Source: an uncultured Clostridia bacterium (lineage in GTDB: Bacteria > Bacillota > Clostridia > Oscillospirales > Acutalibacteraceae). From it: 64,000 bases of DNA. The notes beneath the pieces were generated by a model, which saw only the letters and a program-made list of their open reading frames with translations, did no database searches and had not been told where the DNA came from. Positions 29,587-37,222 of this stretch are shown here, one piece after another. The position numbers and the translations under genes were made by a program. The stretch lies in the NCBI GenBank assembly GCA_946499275.1, contig CAMMRL010000007.1:1-64000 (forward strand). The letters run 5' to 3'. Numbering within the stretch: position 1 is the first letter of the stretch; every line of letters begins with the position of its first letter.

Positions 29587-30828
29587 TCACAGCCGGATAA
29601 CTACCCGCCGGGGCTCCCCGTCGCCGGCGTAAAAGCTCTTGCGTAGGATGTCCCGGTTTACGGTGGTTTCCTGCCCATCGATTGTCACGGTAATATCATA
29701 ATTACCAAAGAAAAGGCGGGTTTTGCAGATCCCTTCCGGCCCGGTGGTCAAATCTGCGTCGGAATGCCACTCCTTGTGAATTAAGTCGTATAGGGTGTGG
29801 TAAATCGGCTTGGGCTGCAGGTCGTCGGTCACTACGCCCGCCGGCGCATCCAGCCAGCGATGGTCGGTGAAGTCAAACCAGGACAGGGCCTCTACTGCCG
29901 GATGGCTGAATACCAGTGTATAAAAGTTCTTGGTAAACTCCGCCTGGGAATAGAGGTCCTCTTCCGTCTCGTGCCACTCGTTATGTTGGCCCGCGCCGTA
30001 ATTGGTTACGCCAATCGGGGTGCCGCTGCACACCGAGCATTCGGGGAAATGGATCGGCCAGCCGAATTCCGACGCCCTCTCCAGAATCCGCATGGTTTCC
30101 TCCTCGCTCCACCGGTCCACATGCTGGTGGGACTGGATACCGAGATAGTCCACGTCGATATCGTTTTCCCTCATCTGGCGGAGGAAATCGTAGTATTCTT
30201 CCACATGGACGTTCCAGTCGCCGTAAATCAGCTTGGCGTCCGGCTTGAAGGAGCGGGTCAGCTCCACGCCGAATTTCAGCATATTCATCGGGCCGTATTC
30301 CCGCACCCAGCGGGAAACCGGGTTGTCGAACCGGTCGTTCACCGTCGTTTCATTCGCCACGTCGAAAAAGTCGAAATCGTCCCCAAAATTCGACATCAGA
30401 TGGGAGATGCGTTCGACGTACAACGCTTTCACATCGTCGGTATCCTTTACCCAGCCAGGGCAAAGTTCATGCCAAATCAGGGCATGGAGCTTCCGCTTAA
30501 GCCCGTTCGCCTGTGCCCAGCGGATCAGGTTGCTGGTGTACGGTTCGTTGTATTCGTGCCGCTTCGGCTCGTACCAACTCCAGTGGTAGGGCACCATCGT
30601 ATAGTTGAACAACCGGGTGAATTCCTCGGTAAAGCGCTCGTTCATCTCCGGCTTATCGTAGGTGCCGTACTTATAGCAAACCGCGCCGAAAAGGAACTGA
30701 TGGTTCTTCATCCGCACCTTCACCCCGGCGTTTTCCACCGGTTTGCCGTCCTTTAACACCCAAAACTCTACGTCCTTGGTGCGGACCTCCTGAATCCGCC
30801 GTTTGGCTTGCTCCAAAATTTCGCTCAT
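29587..30828 (-). CDS. Cytoplasmic GH10 endo-1,4-beta-xylanase
   Basis: Glycoside hydrolase family 10 enzyme (413 aa) cleaving beta-1,4-xylan or, since there is no signal peptide, imported xylo-oligosaccharides. ATG 30828 follows AAGGAG at 12 bases. A short beta N-terminus (about 20-45) precedes the barrel; HWSWYEPKRHEYNEP, LHALIWHELCPGW and FFDVANETTVND (acid/base Glu in NE) are typical, and the nucleophile is the Glu of HFPECSV. A C-terminal beta extension of about 60 residues closes the protein. It has a strong promoter and a cre-like site, so catabolite control is likely. No other xylan gene is adjacent. Confidence 0.92.
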   Translation of the reverse strand: MSEILEQAKRRIQEVRTKDVEFWVLKDGKPVENAGVKVRMKNHQFLFGAVCYKYGTYDKPEMNERFTEEFTRLFNYTMVPYHWSWYEPKRHEYNEPYTSNLIRWAQANGLKRKLHALIWHELCPGWVKDTDDVKALYVERISHLMSNFGDDFDFFDVANETTVNDRFDNPVSRWVREYGPMNMLKFGVELTRSFKPDAKLIYGDWNVHVEEYYDFLRQMRENDIDVDYLGIQSHQHVDRWSEEETMRILERASEFGWPIHFPECSVCSGTPIGVTNYGAGQHNEWHETEEDLYSQAEFTKNFYTLVFSHPAVEALSWFDFTDHRWLDAPAGVVTDDLQPKPIYHTLYDLIHKEWHSDADLTTGPEGICKTRLFFGNYDITVTIDGQETTVNRDILRKSFYAGDGEPRRVVIRL

Positions 30829-30900
30829 ATCGGTTTTGGTCTCCTTCCCCACGTCCGGTCTCGGCCGGTACTTCTTCCCTATGAGGGACGCCCTAACGAG

Positions 30901-31167: not shown

Positions 31168-32208
31168 CTATTTGGGCAGAACGGACAGCACAAACATCGT
31201 CATCCCCGCGGCGGCCAGCCAAACGGGCAATGGCCGGAAAGAAACCGGCAGATGCGGGTTGCCGGACGTATCCAGCCGTGGGACCGCCGCCGCGATCAGG
31301 GCGCAGGCCAGCCCGAGAATCAGCGCCGCCGCGGCCGTCCCGCCGAACAGGGGAAGCGCTTCGGCTTCAGCCATCTTCCGGTCGGCGGCCAGCACCGCCA
31401 GGGTTGCCAGCGCCGGGAGCGTCCCGTCCGCGAAGACGGCGCGCAGCGTCGCTTTCACCGGCGCTTCGTTCGGCTTTTCACGCAGCGCCGCTCCAACTGC
31501 GAGGGCGAGTAGCCCCGCCAATGCCGCGGCGAGGAACGGCCGCCACAACCCGGGCAGCGGGAACAGCCGGGTCAGCAGGGCAAAGAATGCGCCGGCCGCT
31601 ATCGTCAACCCCAACGCGCCGACCGCATACAGCAGCCCTTCCGGAACCCGATAGCTGATCAGCTTCCCTTGTCCCCGAATGCGGAACAGGGCCAGCAGCA
31701 GCGCCGCGATAATCAGCCCCGCGCCGCCGAAGGCAAAGGAATCGGAAACCGGGAATCCGTCCGGAAGGATCCGCACCCCGGCAAGCGTCCCGGCCGACAA
31801 CAGCTCCCGCACCCCGCCGATGACTAGGAGGGCGAGACTGCAAAGCGCCAGCCGTTTTGACGAAACCGGCTTTTTCTCCATCAGGGTTACGGCCGCCGGC
31901 GCGCTGAACAGGAACAGGGCTGCTGTTAGCCACTCCGGCCCCATCGCCGCCAGCCACGCCGGCCGGTAGGCGGACAACGCCAGCCGCAGGGCGGTATACA
32001 GCGCTGCGGCGAAAAACAGGGAAGCCGCATTCCTCGCTCGGCCGGTTAAGGGACGAAAAATGAATAGCATCAGCAAATTGAGCAGCAGGAACAGCGCCCC
32101 CCCGGCGAGCACAAGCAACGCCGCGGTCAGCGAACCGCAGCTTGCTGCCAGCAGACAGAGGAATACCGCCGCGCCGTCCACCGACGGCCGCCGTTTTACC
32201 GGGGCCAT
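31168..32208 (-). CDS. RnfE/RnfA-like membrane protein, apparently fused and divergent
   Basis: Integral membrane protein of 346 aa with about 10 hydrophobic segments. The start is ATG 32208 (GGAGAG upstream), directly after the rnfG stop. The first half resembles RnfE/NqrD (AYRPAWLAAMGPEWL, LVIGGVRELLSAGTLAGVRIL). The end (IAAAVPRLDTS...FRPLPVWLAAAGMTMFVL) resembles the RnfA/RnfE C-terminus. One gene thus stands where two of about 190-200 codons are usual. The half-membrane cysteines that bind the Fe-S cluster between RnfA and RnfE (or NqrD/E) are not obvious: only a few cysteines occur, near the N-terminus, in CSLALL and in LACAL. Role in ion-coupled electron transfer is inferred from the operon. 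Confidence 0.6.
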   Translation of the reverse strand: MAPVKRRPSVDGAAVFLCLLAASCGSLTAALLVLAGGALFLLLNLLMLFIFRPLTGRARNAASLFFAAALYTALRLALSAYRPAWLAAMGPEWLTAALFLFSAPAAVTLMEKKPVSSKRLALCSLALLVIGGVRELLSAGTLAGVRILPDGFPVSDSFAFGGAGLIIAALLLALFRIRGQGKLISYRVPEGLLYAVGALGLTIAAGAFFALLTRLFPLPGLWRPFLAAALAGLLALAVGAALREKPNEAPVKATLRAVFADGTLPALATLAVLAADRKMAEAEALPLFGGTAAAALILGLACALIAAAVPRLDTSGNPHLPVSFRPLPVWLAAAGMTMFVLSVLPK

Positions 32209-32209
32209 C

Positions 32210-33589
32210 TCACTTACTCTCCTTGGCAAGGCCCGCCGCAAATTCATAGGCACGGTTGGCCGCCTTTACCACTGCTTTCGAGGAAACCGTCGCGCCGGTT
32301 ACGCCGTCCACTTCCCCGCTGCCGGACGCCGCGTTCTCCACCTTGTCGCCGGAATCGGCAGCCCCGGCCGTCTCCAACGCCTTACCCGCCAGCTTGACAA
32401 ACTCCGAAACATCCACCGATACGCCGGTGTACGCGTCGGTCTTGCCGGTGTCCGCATCATAGACCAGGCGGGCGGGATTTTGCAGTGCGATCAGCGCGTC
32501 CTCCATCGTCTTGGCCTGTTCGTGCCAGAGGGGGCCGTCCTCGGTCATCACGTAATCCCCCGCCTTGGACTCCACCTTTTTGGTGAGATCGGAGCCCTCC
32601 TTGTTCGCGTCCCAGTTCACCGCGGAGATCCGGCCGTCTGTCACGGTGATTTCCACAAAGTATTGGTATCCCTGCACATATTCGGCCTGCTCCGCGCGAT
32701 AGGTGCCGTCCTTCCACAGGGCGGTGTTTTCCGACCCGGACTTAGTTTGGCCGACCGCTTCTTCCGCCAGCTTGACGAACTCCGACACGTCCACCGATAC
32801 GCCGGTGTACGCGTCGGTCTTGCCGGTATCCGCATCATAGACCAGGGCCGCGGGATCCTGCGTCTCGATCAGTGCGTCCTCCATCGTCTTGGCCTGTTCG
32901 TGCCAGAGGGGGCCGTCCTCGGTCATCACATAGTTCCCCGCTTCGGACTCCGCCTTTTTGGTGAGATCGGAGCCCTCCTTATTCGCGTCCCAGTTCACGG
33001 CGGTGATCCGGCCGCCCTGGACGGTAATCTCCACAAAATACTTGTACCCCTGCACATATTCGGCCTGCTCTGCGCGGTAACTGCCGTCCTTCATTTCCCC
33101 TGAGGAAGAAGAACCGCCGCTGTTTCCCGCCCCGCTGTCCATGCCGGTATACCCGTCCAGGGACGCGGGGGCGGACAAGGAATTAAACTGGCTGTAAAAC
33201 GCTTCTTCGGTCACGCGGGAACCGTAGCCCTGCGTTTCCTGGTTGCTGCCCACCCGCAGCCCGAGAAAGCGGGTCGCGTCGGCGGACAAGGCGGTGTGCA
33301 CCTCCATATCCCCGCCGTAGCCTTTCACCAGGGTGGTAACCGCGTACCCCAGCAGAGCGCCGTCCTTGTCCAGCACGCGGTATGCCGCTTTGATATCCGC
33401 GGCGCCAGCAGTGTCCACCGTCTCCCATTTTTCTCCGGAAATCACGCCGGAAAACGCTTCCTGCACCGCCTGCAGCTCCTGTTTTTCGATGACGTTGCGG
33501 GTAATCGCGTCCATGCCGAAGAGCAGGGCGACCGAGATCGCCGCCACCGCCAACAGACTGAGCAGCGGTTTTATCCATTGTTTCATCAT
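32210..33589 (-). CDS. rnfG: RnfG-like flavoprotein with two inserted FMN-binding repeats
   Basis: Membrane-anchored protein (459 aa, against about 190-220 for normal RnfG). Start ATG 33589 after AAAGGACAGG. Membrane helix at about 7-27, then an RnfG N-terminal half (KWETVDTAG...GYAVTTLVKGYGGDM...LRVGSNQETQGYGSRV). A Gly/Ser linker leads to two near-identical repeats (about 168-280 and 294-406) of the type DGTYRAEQAEYVQGYQYFVE, as in PplA-like extracellular FMN-binding domains, each ending DAYTGVSVDVSEF. The canonical RnfG flavinylation site DGVTGATVSSKAV comes last (about 428-440). So the original domain seems to be split by the insert. ApbE, which attaches FMN at such Thr/Ser, is encoded in the same operon. 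In the repeats the motif is altered (TGVS for SGAT), so flavinylation there is uncertain. Confidence 0.82.
   Translation of the reverse strand: MMKQWIKPLLSLLAVAAISVALLFGMDAITRNVIEKQELQAVQEAFSGVISGEKWETVDTAGAADIKAAYRVLDKDGALLGYAVTTLVKGYGGDMEVHTALSADATRFLGLRVGSNQETQGYGSRVTEEAFYSQFNSLSAPASLDGYTGMDSGAGNSGGSSSSGEMKDGSYRAEQAEYVQGYKYFVEITVQGGRITAVNWDANKEGSDLTKKAESEAGNYVMTEDGPLWHEQAKTMEDALIETQDPAALVYDADTGKTDAYTGVSVDVSEFVKLAEEAVGQTKSGSENTALWKDGTYRAEQAEYVQGYQYFVEITVTDGRISAVNWDANKEGSDLTKKVESKAGDYVMTEDGPLWHEQAKTMEDALIALQNPARLVYDADTGKTDAYTGVSVDVSEFVKLAGKALETAGAADSGDKVENAASGSGEVDGVTGATVSSKAVVKAANRAYEFAAGLAKESK
32372..32710 (-). repeat. Second copy of tandem repeat inside rnfG
   Basis: 339-base unit, in phase, strongly alike to 32750-33088 at DNA level (long shared stretches around the EGSDLTKK and WHEQAKTMEDAL codons). 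Period 378 bases. Confidence 0.85.
32750..33088 (-). repeat. First copy of tandem repeat inside rnfG
   Basis: Partner of 32372-32710. Near identity of whole stretches, including synonymous positions, points to recent duplication or gene conversion. Confidence 0.85.
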
Positions 33590-33703: not shown

Positions 33704-34654
33704 TTACCGCTTGGCCGGGTCGGGCGCCGCCGTACGGGATGGAACGGTGCCGTAAACCGGCGGCCGGGTCAGGTATTCGATCAGCGGGGTCGCCAGGTTC
33801 ATCAGCAGGATGGCAAAGCACATCCCCTCCGGATACGGGCCCCATAAGCGGAGCGCCGCCGTTATGACGCCTACGCCGCCCGCATAAATCAGTTCCCCTA
33901 CAAAGGTGGTAGGCTTGCCGGTAAAATCGGTCACCATATAAAACGCGCCGAGCATCAGGCCGCCCGAAAGGAGCTGCGCCGCCGCATCCCCGGTAAACAA
34001 GGTATTGCCCCCGAAAATCCACATAAAAAGCGCGAAGCTCCACACGCAGGTCACCGGCACGCGTAGGCGGATGCAACCGGTAGCCAGCAGATACGCCCCG
34101 CCGAGCAGGATCAGCAGCACCGACGTTTCCCCGATACTGCCGTTTTCCCGCCCCCAAAGCATCGACCACAGGCTTTCCTCCCCGGTCATCGCCAGCGGCG
34201 TGGCGGAGGAGGTCGCGTCCGCCCAGCCGTACCCGCTCAGCGAGGTTGGCCAGACCACCATCAGCATGGCACGGCCCGCCATCGCCGGATTGAGCAGGTT
34301 GTGCCCAATGCCACCGAGCAGCTGCTTGACCACCGCGATGGAGAAGATCCCCGCGACGGCGGCGGCGAACAGGTTGGTGCCCGCCGGCAGCGAAAGCGCC
34401 AGCAGCAAGCCGGTCACCACCGCGCTGCCGTCGAACGCCGCCCCGTCCCGTCGGAGCTTGAGACATACCCCTTCGGTCACCCCGCAGGCCGCCACCGTGA
34501 CCAGCAGCAGCCACAGCGCCTGCAGCCGGAAGAACCACAGCGCAGCGATCACCACCGGCGCCAGGCCGATGCAGACGTCCCGCATGATGTCGGCGGTACG
34601 CCGCGGACGGCGGATATGCGGAGCGGACAGCGCCAGATTTTGTTTGACATCCAA
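33704..34654 (-). CDS. rnfD: RnfD-like membrane subunit
   Basis: Membrane protein (316 aa) of an Rnf-type ion-translocating complex. I start at TTG 34654 (nine bases after GAAAGGGGG), which gives MDVKQNLALSAPHIR, the usual RnfD start; the frame is open upstream but without signals. About nine membrane helices; blocks GGIGHNLLNPAMAGRAML and the FMN attachment site SSATPLAM (Thr in SAT), and GAFYMVTDFTGKPTT. RnfD would carry covalent FMN added by ApbE. It lies between rnfC (165 bases upstream) and rnfG (114 bases downstream). Confidence 0.9.
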   Translation of the reverse strand: MDVKQNLALSAPHIRRPRRTADIMRDVCIGLAPVVIAALWFFRLQALWLLLVTVAACGVTEGVCLKLRRDGAAFDGSAVVTGLLLALSLPAGTNLFAAAVAGIFSIAVVKQLLGGIGHNLLNPAMAGRAMLMVVWPTSLSGYGWADATSSATPLAMTGEESLWSMLWGRENGSIGETSVLLILLGGAYLLATGCIRLRVPVTCVWSFALFMWIFGGNTLFTGDAAAQLLSGGLMLGAFYMVTDFTGKPTTFVGELIYAGGVGVITAALRLWGPYPEGMCFAILLMNLATPLIEYLTRPPVYGTVPSRTAAPDPAKR

Positions 34655-34819
34655 GAAAGGTTGCCCCCTTTCGTTCCTTATTGCCGGGCCGGGCAGCCCG
34701 GTTTTGCGGCGGCACTTCCGCCGTTTGTCCCGGTATTGTTGTGTAATTTTCCTACCGCGCCCCGTCCAGATCCCGTTCAGCGGGCGGGACTTACCCGCCA
34801 TCGGGGATAAGTCGCCGGG

Positions 34820-36130
34820 TCAGGCGCGCTTTATCCGGTTTTCCCGGAAAGCGGAGCGGGCCATTGTCACCCGATGGGCCAGATGCCGCTTGGCGGGACA
34901 GATATAGGAGCAGCAACCGCAGGAAATGCACTGATCGGCCCGGTAGTCCACGCAGGCCGCCATATCCCCCCCTATCACCGCCGCGTCAATCGCAAACGGA
35001 AGCAGCGAAGAAGGACATACCCTGGCGCAACCGCCGCAGCGGATGCAGTTGCTCTCCTGGTTTTCCATCCGGTCGAGCACCACCAGCCCGGTCGTCCCTT
35101 TGATAACCGGCACCTCCAGCGAAGGGAGGGCCGCGCCGGTCATCGGCCCGCCGGCAATCCATAGATACCGCGCGTCCCCGGTCGCGCCGCCGCAGTACTC
35201 CAGCAGTTCCGACAGGCGGGTGCCGATCGGGACATAGAGATTAGCGGGCTTGGCCACCCGGCCGCTCACCGTCACCACCCGGTGGGTCAGCGGGCGTCCC
35301 CGCAGCGCGTCGGCCAGGGCCACGGTCGTCCCCACGTTGGTAACGATCACGCCGCAGTCGGCCGGCAGGCCGCCGGCGGGGACTTCCCGGCCGAGCACCG
35401 CCTTAATCAGCTGCCGCTCGCCTCCCTGCGGGTATTTTACCGGCAGGCGCACCACCGAAATCCCGTCCTGGCCGCGGACGGCGTCCTCAAGCATAGCGAT
35501 GGCGTCCGGCTTGTTCTCTTCCACGCAGATCATCACCTGCGCCTCGTCCGCCGCCAGACGGAGCGCTTTCGCCCCGGCAAGCACCTGGTCCGGCTGTTCC
35601 ACCATCAGGCGGTGGTCGCAGGTGAGATATGGTTCGCATTCCGCGCCGTTCACCAGCACATAGCGGATCGGCTTATTGGTTTCGTATTTGAGGAAGGTGG
35701 GAAATCCCGCGCCGCCCATACCGATCAGCCCGGCCTCCTTCATCAGGGCGCGGACGCCGTCCCGGCTGTTCGCGGTAAGGAGAGACGGTGCCGCTTCCCC
35801 TTTCCCGTCGCTGTCCACCACCACGGCGAGACTTTCTCCTGTAGCCGAGGGGCGGGGTTCCACCGCCCGGACGGTACCGGACACCCCGCAGTGGACGGGG
35901 GCGGCGAACACCGGACGGTTCCCTTCCCCCTGCGGCGGGACACCGACTACCTGCCCGGCAAGCACCCGGTCGCCCGGCTTTACCACCGGCACGCACTCCG
36001 CGCCGAACCCCTGCCGCATCAGCAGCACAAGCTGCGCCGGCGTAAAGGGCTGGATTTTGCTCTGTGCGGTCTCCATTTTATGCTCGACCGCATGGCCGAA
36101 CGCCACGCCGCCGCGAAAAGGTAGGGGCAT
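34820..36130 (-). CDS. rnfC: RnfC-like electron-transfer subunit
   Basis: Peripheral subunit (436 aa) that in known complexes oxidises NADH via FMN and passes electrons to Fe-S clusters. N-terminal RnfC barrel-sandwich start (LPFRGGVAFGHAVEHK), glycine-rich nucleotide/FMN site GLIGMGGAGFPTFLKY, NGAECEPYLTCDHRLM, and PVKYPQGGERQLIKAV. Two 4Fe-4S motifs near the C-terminus: CIRCGGCARVCP (about 362) and CISCGCCSYICP (about 400). All are intact. First Rnf gene after apbE. Confidence 0.94.
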   Translation of the reverse strand: MPLPFRGGVAFGHAVEHKMETAQSKIQPFTPAQLVLLMRQGFGAECVPVVKPGDRVLAGQVVGVPPQGEGNRPVFAAPVHCGVSGTVRAVEPRPSATGESLAVVVDSDGKGEAAPSLLTANSRDGVRALMKEAGLIGMGGAGFPTFLKYETNKPIRYVLVNGAECEPYLTCDHRLMVEQPDQVLAGAKALRLAADEAQVMICVEENKPDAIAMLEDAVRGQDGISVVRLPVKYPQGGERQLIKAVLGREVPAGGLPADCGVIVTNVGTTVALADALRGRPLTHRVVTVSGRVAKPANLYVPIGTRLSELLEYCGGATGDARYLWIAGGPMTGAALPSLEVPVIKGTTGLVVLDRMENQESNCIRCGGCARVCPSSLLPFAIDAAVIGGDMAACVDYRADQCISCGCCSYICPAKRHLAHRVTMARSAFRENRIKRA

Positions 36131-36160: not shown

Positions 36161-37222
36161 TTATTCCGGTCCGCCCTCAAGGACAAAACCCGGTGTGGAC
36201 GCCGTGCTCCCGTCGTGAAAAACCCACAGCGCGTCGATTCCCGGCGTATTCTCCGCCAGTTCCCGCGCCTGCTCATACGGCTGGGCAAACAGCGCGGTGG
36301 AATAAAAATCCGCCGTCCCCGCGTCGGGGGCAAGCACCGTGACCGCCCGGACATAGCTGGCGGGACGGCCGGTTTGGCTGTCAAGAATATGGGAATAGAA
36401 TATCCCATTTTTTTCAAAATATTTCTGGTAGTCCCCACTCGTACCGATGCAACGGTCCTTCACGATGATCTGCCCGAGCGTTTCGGGCGGGTCCGCCACA
36501 CCGGACAGGTTCAACTCCGCATCCGGATTCCTCACTGCAACGCTCCACCCCTCTTTCCCCGGAGGGACCCCCGCGCATACCAGCGTGCTGGTGCCGCAGT
36601 CCAGCAAAAAGACGGATATCCCGCTTTGTGCCAGTTTGTCGGCAATCGACTGCGCAGCCAGCCCCTTGGCTACGCCCCCCATATCCAGGGACATGTCCGG
36701 ATCGGCCAGTTCTACCCATGCCCCGTCGCCGGTCCAGGCCACGTCCACCGCCTGTATGGAAATATGGCCCATCGCTTCGTCGATCGCCGCCTGGGCGGGC
36801 GGTTCCCCCGTTTGCCGGGCGGTATGCCAGAGAGCGAGCACGCTGCCCATGGCGATGTTCACCGCCGGGGATTTTTCCTGCCAGGCGCGGCAAGTCTCGA
36901 TCGCCGCCGCCACCTCCCGATCCACAGGAACCGGCCCTTCCCCCGCCCCGGCGTTAATATGAGCCAGTTCACTGTCCGGGCGGTAGAGGTTGTACCGCTT
37001 GTCCGCTTGTTCCAGTTCCTCTTTCACCAGCTCACAGGCGCGGTCGAATTCCGCGCTGTCGGTACAATAGGCGGTAAAGCGCACTACCGTGTCCATGGAA
37101 CCGAGGAAAGCGGTCTGATAGCGGGAACGCTCCGGTCGTTCCTCCTTTATTCCACAGCCGGGCAGAAGCAGCGCAGCCAGCACGTACAACACGGCGGTTT
37201 GCAGCCGCCCCATCCATTTCAT
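36161..37222 (-). CDS. apbE: FAD:protein FMN transferase (ApbE), lipoprotein
   Basis: Extracytoplasmic Mg-dependent enzyme (353 aa) that cuts FAD and attaches FMN to Thr/Ser of target proteins. Signal peptide with lipobox (LLLPGC, lipidated Cys at about 23). Blocks: FLGSMDTVVRFTAY, the metal/FAD region DMGGVAKGLAAQSIAD, DCGTS, and HILDSQTGRPASYVRAVTV with DAGTADFYSTALFA. It is first in the operon before rnfC, and its natural targets RnfD and RnfG follow. RBS GGGAGAAGG. Confidence 0.94.
   Translation of the reverse strand: MKWMGRLQTAVLYVLAALLLPGCGIKEERPERSRYQTAFLGSMDTVVRFTAYCTDSAEFDRACELVKEELEQADKRYNLYRPDSELAHINAGAGEGPVPVDREVAAAIETCRAWQEKSPAVNIAMGSVLALWHTARQTGEPPAQAAIDEAMGHISIQAVDVAWTGDGAWVELADPDMSLDMGGVAKGLAAQSIADKLAQSGISVFLLDCGTSTLVCAGVPPGKEGWSVAVRNPDAELNLSGVADPPETLGQIIVKDRCIGTSGDYQKYFEKNGIFYSHILDSQTGRPASYVRAVTVLAPDAGTADFYSTALFAQPYEQARELAENTPGIDALWVFHDGSTASTPGFVLEGGPE

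Follow-up and report, generated by a model that had tools for sequence, protein, structure and literature searches.

In the canonical Rnf complex electrons pass from RnfB to the RnfA/E centre and then through RnfG, RnfD and RnfC to NAD (PMC12174285, PMC9588780), and both RnfB and four cysteines of RnfA and RnfE are needed to deliver them to RnfG (PMC9588780, PMC12174285). These residues, Cys25, Cys113, Cys26 and Cys109, are the invariant ligands of the intramembrane iron centre (PMC9588780). RnfG and NqrC (e.g. C. tetanomorphum RnfG; PDB 7zc6) have a membrane anchor and an FMN_bind core with T-G-A-T before the terminal helix. Multi-flavinylated RnfG proteins, with more than one FMN_bind domain and encoded in rnf clusters, have been described (Meheust et al. 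2021, PMC8238504) and belong there to an Rnf with an extra branch. In the circularly permuted multi-FMN-bind1 proteins (Huang et al. 2024, PMC11334425) another domain separates the N- and C-terminal pieces that together form the first FMN_bind domain; they are not stated to be RnfG, and the double-flavinylated example has one inserted domain. PplA, the cAD1 precursor lipoproteins and A3DHT5 (PDB 2kzx) are free lipoproteins with canonical S-G-A-T, and PplA has two FMN_bind domains in tandem. Finally, the Nqr/Rnf-like two-subunit complexes (PMC8238504, PMC11334425) are reduced Rnf/Nqr relatives with a proposed one-way transfer from NAD(P)H to the outside, in which an NqrB-like membrane domain is fused to PF00175 and there is no NqrB/RnfD flavinylation site.

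The window (the whole 64,000-nucleotide stretch analysed here) contains a cluster in the order ApbE, RnfC, RnfD, RnfG and a fused RnfE/A-like membrane protein (Table 1) that resembles each of these systems in part. Its RnfG differs from 7zc6 in having ~280 residues in place of a ~8-residue loop directly before the FMN-attachment site, and unlike the PplA-type lipoproteins, the two units found there are nested in RnfG and end in GVS. The cluster also differs from the multi-flavinylated RnfG systems as Meheust et al. describe them in its fused RnfE/A, its missing RnfB and the GVS sites, and it differs from the two-subunit complexes in keeping RnfC and an RnfD with its flavin site. Multi-flavinylated RnfG and the nested FMN_bind topology are already published; what is new is the reduced form of the complex and the shift in the motif. 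A literature query for an RnfB-less Rnf gave no match to that phrase, which is weak evidence of absence.

Table 1. Features of the rnf-like cluster, in window coordinates.
Feature	Coordinates	Strand	Evidence
ApbE flavin transferase lipoprotein	36161..37222	-	PF02424, 1.6e-62
RnfC, with GMGGAGFP and two CxxCxxCxxxCP	34820..36130	-	TIGR01945 above cut-off
RnfD, flavinylation motif DATSSAT	33704..34801	-	TIGR01946 above cut-off; motif alignment
RnfG-like subunit with two nested FMN_bind units	32210..33589	-	ORF, translation, FMN_bind/RnfG/PplA models, Foldseek
RnfG N-terminal half, residues 1-138 (about)	33176..33589	-	Alignment to C. tetanomorphum RnfG 11-138
Ser/Gly-rich linker preceding unit 1	33092..33175	-	Sequence
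FMN_bind unit 1, residues 167-280	32750..33091	-	Profile match to PDB 2kzx
12-residue inter-unit linker	32714..32749	-	Homologous linker of the same length in G007
FMN_bind unit 2, residues 293-406	32372..32713	-	Profile match to PDB 2kzx
RnfG C-terminal part, DGVTGATVSS and terminal helix	32213..32308	-	Aligned to 7zc6_G 147-181
Fused RnfE/RnfA-like membrane protein	31168..32253	-	hhalign to RnfE and RnfA

The rnfG gene is a single open frame on the reverse strand, running from an ATG at 33589 to a TGA at 32210 and encoding 459 residues, of which 10–137 and 417–451 align with residues 11–138 and 147–181 of C. tetanomorphum RnfG (7zc6_G). It has a single N-terminal membrane helix and an FMN_bind core homologous to RnfG; the N-terminal half supplies the anchor helix and the beta part of the FMN domain, and the motif D-x-x-[S/T]-G-A-[S/T] expected ahead of the C-terminal helix is present as DGVTGAT (residues 428–434, within DGVTGATVSS, 428–437), with Thr434 the expected FMN site. 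Pfam FMN_bind and the NCBIfam RnfG and PplA models all match the protein; the RnfG match (TIGR01947; 2e-21, 77 bits) lies under the 102-bit full-length cut-off and the PplA match (2e-18) under its curated full-length cut-off, as expected because the protein is a chimera. The original prediction of an RnfG interrupted by two PplA-like FMN_bind units is thus borne out by the anatomy of the frame and by the Pfam, NCBIfam and PDB matches.

The units are ~114 residues each and 86% identical to each other, and in the DNA they form a 300 nt repeat of 89% identity with a period of 378 nt (126 residues). Both finish with the same ending, DAYTGVSVDVSEF, in which DAYTGVS (residues 259–265 in unit 1 and 385–391 in unit 2) stands where [S/T]-G-A-[S/T] would be usual, in agreement with the altered flavinylation motif originally reported; the candidate FMN sites are Ser265 and Ser391. 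Profile searches place the units in the PplA/A3DHT5 FMN_bind family (2kzx, E=3e-34; 3o6u, 2e-7), and the proposed HMM check, made with Pfam, NCBIfam and PDB sequence searches, found the expected FMN_bind/PplA-type homology. Structure prediction gave a divided answer. In the full-length AlphaFold model the RnfG N-terminal half (pLDDT ~70–92) and the C-terminal part with its helix (~76–89) are confident, and Foldseek matches this model to RnfG (7zc6, 8ahx; 7zc6_G at E=1e-6) and NqrC. The units are weakly modelled, with pLDDT below 50 in the full-length protein and 59 for a unit alone, and a Foldseek match to 2kzx (7.5e-7) comes from a unit model of low confidence. Their assignment to the FMN_bind fold rests on sequence homology to 2kzx.

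The remaining genes indicate a complex that has kept some Rnf components and lost others. RnfC retains its NADH/FMN and FeS motifs and RnfD its S/T-x-A-T motif, and RnfB is encoded neither here nor in any related nested-RnfG neighbourhood examined. The membrane protein is RnfE-like in its N-terminal part (hhalign probability 96% over 162 columns) and RnfA-like in its C-terminal ~60 residues, the only stretch over which RnfA aligned (78%). It has 361 residues as listed, with a likely start at the ATG at 32208, one base past the rnfG stop. The Pfam Rnf-Nqr model (PF02508), which finds RnfE and RnfA on contig C26 of the same genome, does not match it, and the four-cysteine ligand set is not kept: the RnfA part lacks both of its two ligands and the RnfE part of the window protein has at most one, with two ligand cysteines retained in some relatives. 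The absence of RnfB and of an intact RnfA/E [2Fe-2S] ligand set, which the original prediction overlooked, alters the likely function of the complex; since the RnfC, RnfD and RnfG sites are kept, the remaining chain would join NAD(H) to the extracellular RnfG flavin. A further predicted product encoded nearby (29587–30852, reverse strand) appears by eye only to be like a GH10-type endo-xylanase.

Our main reading, to which we give a probability of a little under one half, is that ApbE and RnfC-D-G-E/A represent a reduced Rnf-derived complex in which electron transfer connects cytosolic NAD(H) with an extracellular acceptor, and no longer ferredoxin with NAD. Electrons would pass from NADH to RnfC (FMN and two [4Fe-4S] clusters), to RnfD (riboflavin and covalent FMN), to the RnfG core FMN at Thr434, and then by way of nested-unit flavins to an acceptor outside. 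The units, on flexible linkers emerging from the loop beside the RnfG FMN, would serve as extra flavin relays or as an exit arm. We infer the FMN on Ser265 and Ser391, the direction of flow and the identity of the acceptor; no known partner reductase turned up in the genome, which is 94% complete.

An improbable alternative is that this is still an Rnf, one that uses the RnfB (and perhaps RnfA/E) encoded on C26, with the units forming a side branch as in multi-flavinylated RnfG. The same genome does have a complete canonical RnfCDGEAB set on C26, whose RnfB could in principle also serve the window complex, and a bifurcating branch has been proposed for multi-flavinylated RnfG (Meheust et al. 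2021, PMC8238504); but a fused RnfE/A lacking the cysteine set is encoded in the cluster itself, which lies in a separate, diverged clade (see below) and is one of a series of related nested-RnfG clusters that, among those examined, all lack RnfB. Only the window RnfG and the C26 RnfG were found as FMN_bind proteins in this 94%-complete genome. The C26 protein (L042, G000:C26, 9701–10411) has DSVSQAT in place of DxxSGAT. We also note a third Rnf-like set in the genome (L054, G000:C55, 6579–10063), consisting of RnfC, RnfD, RnfE and RnfA with no RnfG or RnfB; its RnfC is without GGAGFP, its RnfD without S/T-x-A-T (TESSPAAQ) and its RnfE without the second cysteine.

The distribution of the nested architecture was surveyed with a unit profile in 398 genomes of the family, 394 of the order and 391 of the class. 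Within the family, nested RnfG is present in four genera (g1, g24, g77 and g92), always with RnfC and RnfD, and with the fused E/A protein wherever the contig extends far enough. The order ApbE-C-D-G(unit)-EA is kept in g1, g77 and g92, and C-D-G(unit)-EA in g24, the most divergent of the set; ApbE is inside the cluster only in the former three, the GVS clade, and not in g24. In an RnfD tree the 11 nested complexes form one clade (support 0.992), with the GVS genera as a subclade (0.982), separate from the canonical Rnf of the family, including the C26 complex of the same genome; the RnfC tree resolves less (0.6). A degenerating paralogue with no redox function might be suspected from the lost RnfB and cluster ligands and the patchy presence in the genus. 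This is very improbable, as the rnfG and E/A genes are one base apart, the gene order and the RnfC, RnfD and RnfG motifs are kept across genera, and unit dN/dS is low (0.07–0.20), which indicates that the units evolve under constraint. Elsewhere, two RnfG genes (L006 and L009) have two FMN_bind-type domains end to end, a tandem arrangement unlike the nested one.

The high identity of the two units, silent sites included, had been taken as a sign of recent duplication, and this is contradicted on two counts. First, one third of the silent sites differ between window units 1 and 2 (pS 0.33, dS 0.43; dS within G007 is 0.25). Second, the two-unit form of the gene recurs in another species (G007), where its sequence is distinct and its inter-unit linker homologous and just as long; comparing window units with their G007 orthologues gives dS of 0.7–1.4. 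Informative sites nonetheless group the copies by genome (33, paralogue-like) and not by position (1, orthologue-like). The simplest account from these sequences is that the units have been homogenised inside each genome, fitting an older duplication followed by gene conversion; independent duplications in the window and G007 lineages would be less likely. Only one unit is present in the sister species G010 and G008 (Candidatus Avimonas caecicola; sequence identical to L004), and since the RnfD tree groups G008 with the window sequence, the loss of a unit in G008 would be the simplest explanation. The same comparison disposes of the concern, raised with the original prediction, that the repeat is an assembly artefact. 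A pair of similar units in a 90-contig assembly of metagenome type might reflect a collapsed or expanded tandem repeat, but with the third of silent sites that differ and a two-unit gene in an independent assembly, the probability of such an artefact is negligible.

The question of how many flavins the RnfG carries depends on the unit motif. At one orthologous position there is a natural series, with SGAT or TGAT in g24, AGVS in g77 and g92 and TGVS in g1, in proteins with one or two units. GVS is invariant in 10 units from three genera, which between them draw on three Val and two Ser codons, and D-A-Y-x-G-V-S is otherwise invariant in the GVS clade, where the codons for its Gly, Val and Ser vary synonymously. 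Decay of the motif by drift is thus not favoured, although about half of the columns in the domain are invariant, and because of this high baseline the constancy of GVS counters free drift without in itself proving function.

The ApbE proteins provide a second line of comparison. The cluster ApbE has the PF02424 domain with its catalytic regions and carries CGTST where a GGN loop is usual, and its orthologues in the window clade (including g77 and g92) have CG[T/E]S[T/S], or VGESS in G281; another ApbE, present as a fragment in this genome, has no such replacement. Among unit-family loci, ApbE is within 5 kb in 22 of 25 with a shifted motif (GVS, GVT or GCT) and in 2 of 14 with GA[S/T] (the neighbourhoods scanned spanned about 5 kb, or 1.5 kb at some of the ApbE-positive loci). 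The association is strong by locus (p=8e-6), and by lineage it is 4/6 against 1–2/8 (p 0.09–0.28), so that a tie between shifted motif and nearby ApbE is suggestive only. The strongest single case is family f70, in which the only candidate sites of the lipoproteins are of TVS type and GVS, and ApbE lies 73–117 bp away in four of four genomes; these loci (L118, L119, L098 and L109) encode PplA-like lipoproteins with TxVS/GVS as sole candidate sites and ApbE adjoining. Another locus (L117, 5662–7242, in G991) encodes a 527-residue protein with one FMN_bind domain (DAVSGAT) and then three unit-type domains each ending in DTVASVS, with no ApbE within 5 kb.

These observations bear on a different explanation, in which the units have lost their covalent flavin and act as a spacer, a docking module or a non-covalent flavin-binding module, with one FMN staying at Thr434. 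We consider this somewhat unlikely. The unit motif does deviate from D-x-x-[S/T]-G-A-[S/T], and single Ala to Val and Thr to Ser changes each cut flavinylation, by about 50% and by 10–55% respectively, each tested singly, in published work summarised in PMC12052999. Serine is nevertheless an accepted target (PMC12052999, PMC8238504), all three genera keep the G-V-S and its Asp unchanged through synonymous substitution, unlike drift after loss, and convergent GVS/TVS sequences are the sole candidates in the f70 lipoproteins beside ApbE. The spacer explanation keeps substantial weight mainly because of family f67, where RnfC-D-G clusters with a unit nested in RnfG have no RnfB and no ApbE nearby, the core RnfG motif (DSIDDLPMSE) and the RnfD flavin motif are lost, GGAGFP has become GGEGIP, and most units keep G-V-T with the remainder of the motif gone. 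Neither the RnfD nor the RnfC tree unites these with the window-type complexes, and no alignment was obtained between the membrane proteins; the comparison suggests that the nested architecture, and the fold, may persist without the usual covalent flavins. By eye, the f67 clusters (L113–L116; RnfC-D-nested RnfG-like-membrane protein) are downstream of an RpoD-like sigma factor, and they possibly represent a non-flavin use of Rnf parts.

Returning to the extracellular-transfer reading, we favour an RnfG that would bear one to three covalent flavins. The conserved motif, the cluster ApbE, the g24 SGAT/TGAT at the same site and the singly tolerated substitutions point only indirectly to as many as three, and the ApbE could serve just RnfD and Thr434. 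In its fullest form, which we offer tentatively as possible but not probable, an RnfB-less Rnf lineage without the intramembrane FeS centre would export NADH electrons through an RnfG flavin relay, its dedicated ApbE, with the changed GGN loop, would have co-evolved with D-x-x-[T/A]-G-V-S, and the shifted motif with a paired ApbE would have arisen more than once in the Clostridia. If this is true, gut Clostridia would have converted an Rnf into an NADH oxidase that discharges electrons outward along an extracellular flavin arm of its own. ApbE would also accept a wider range of sites, and change its specificity more readily, than is implied by the SGAT motif on which counts of flavinylated proteins rely, and GVS, GVT and GCT sites would escape motif-based surveys.
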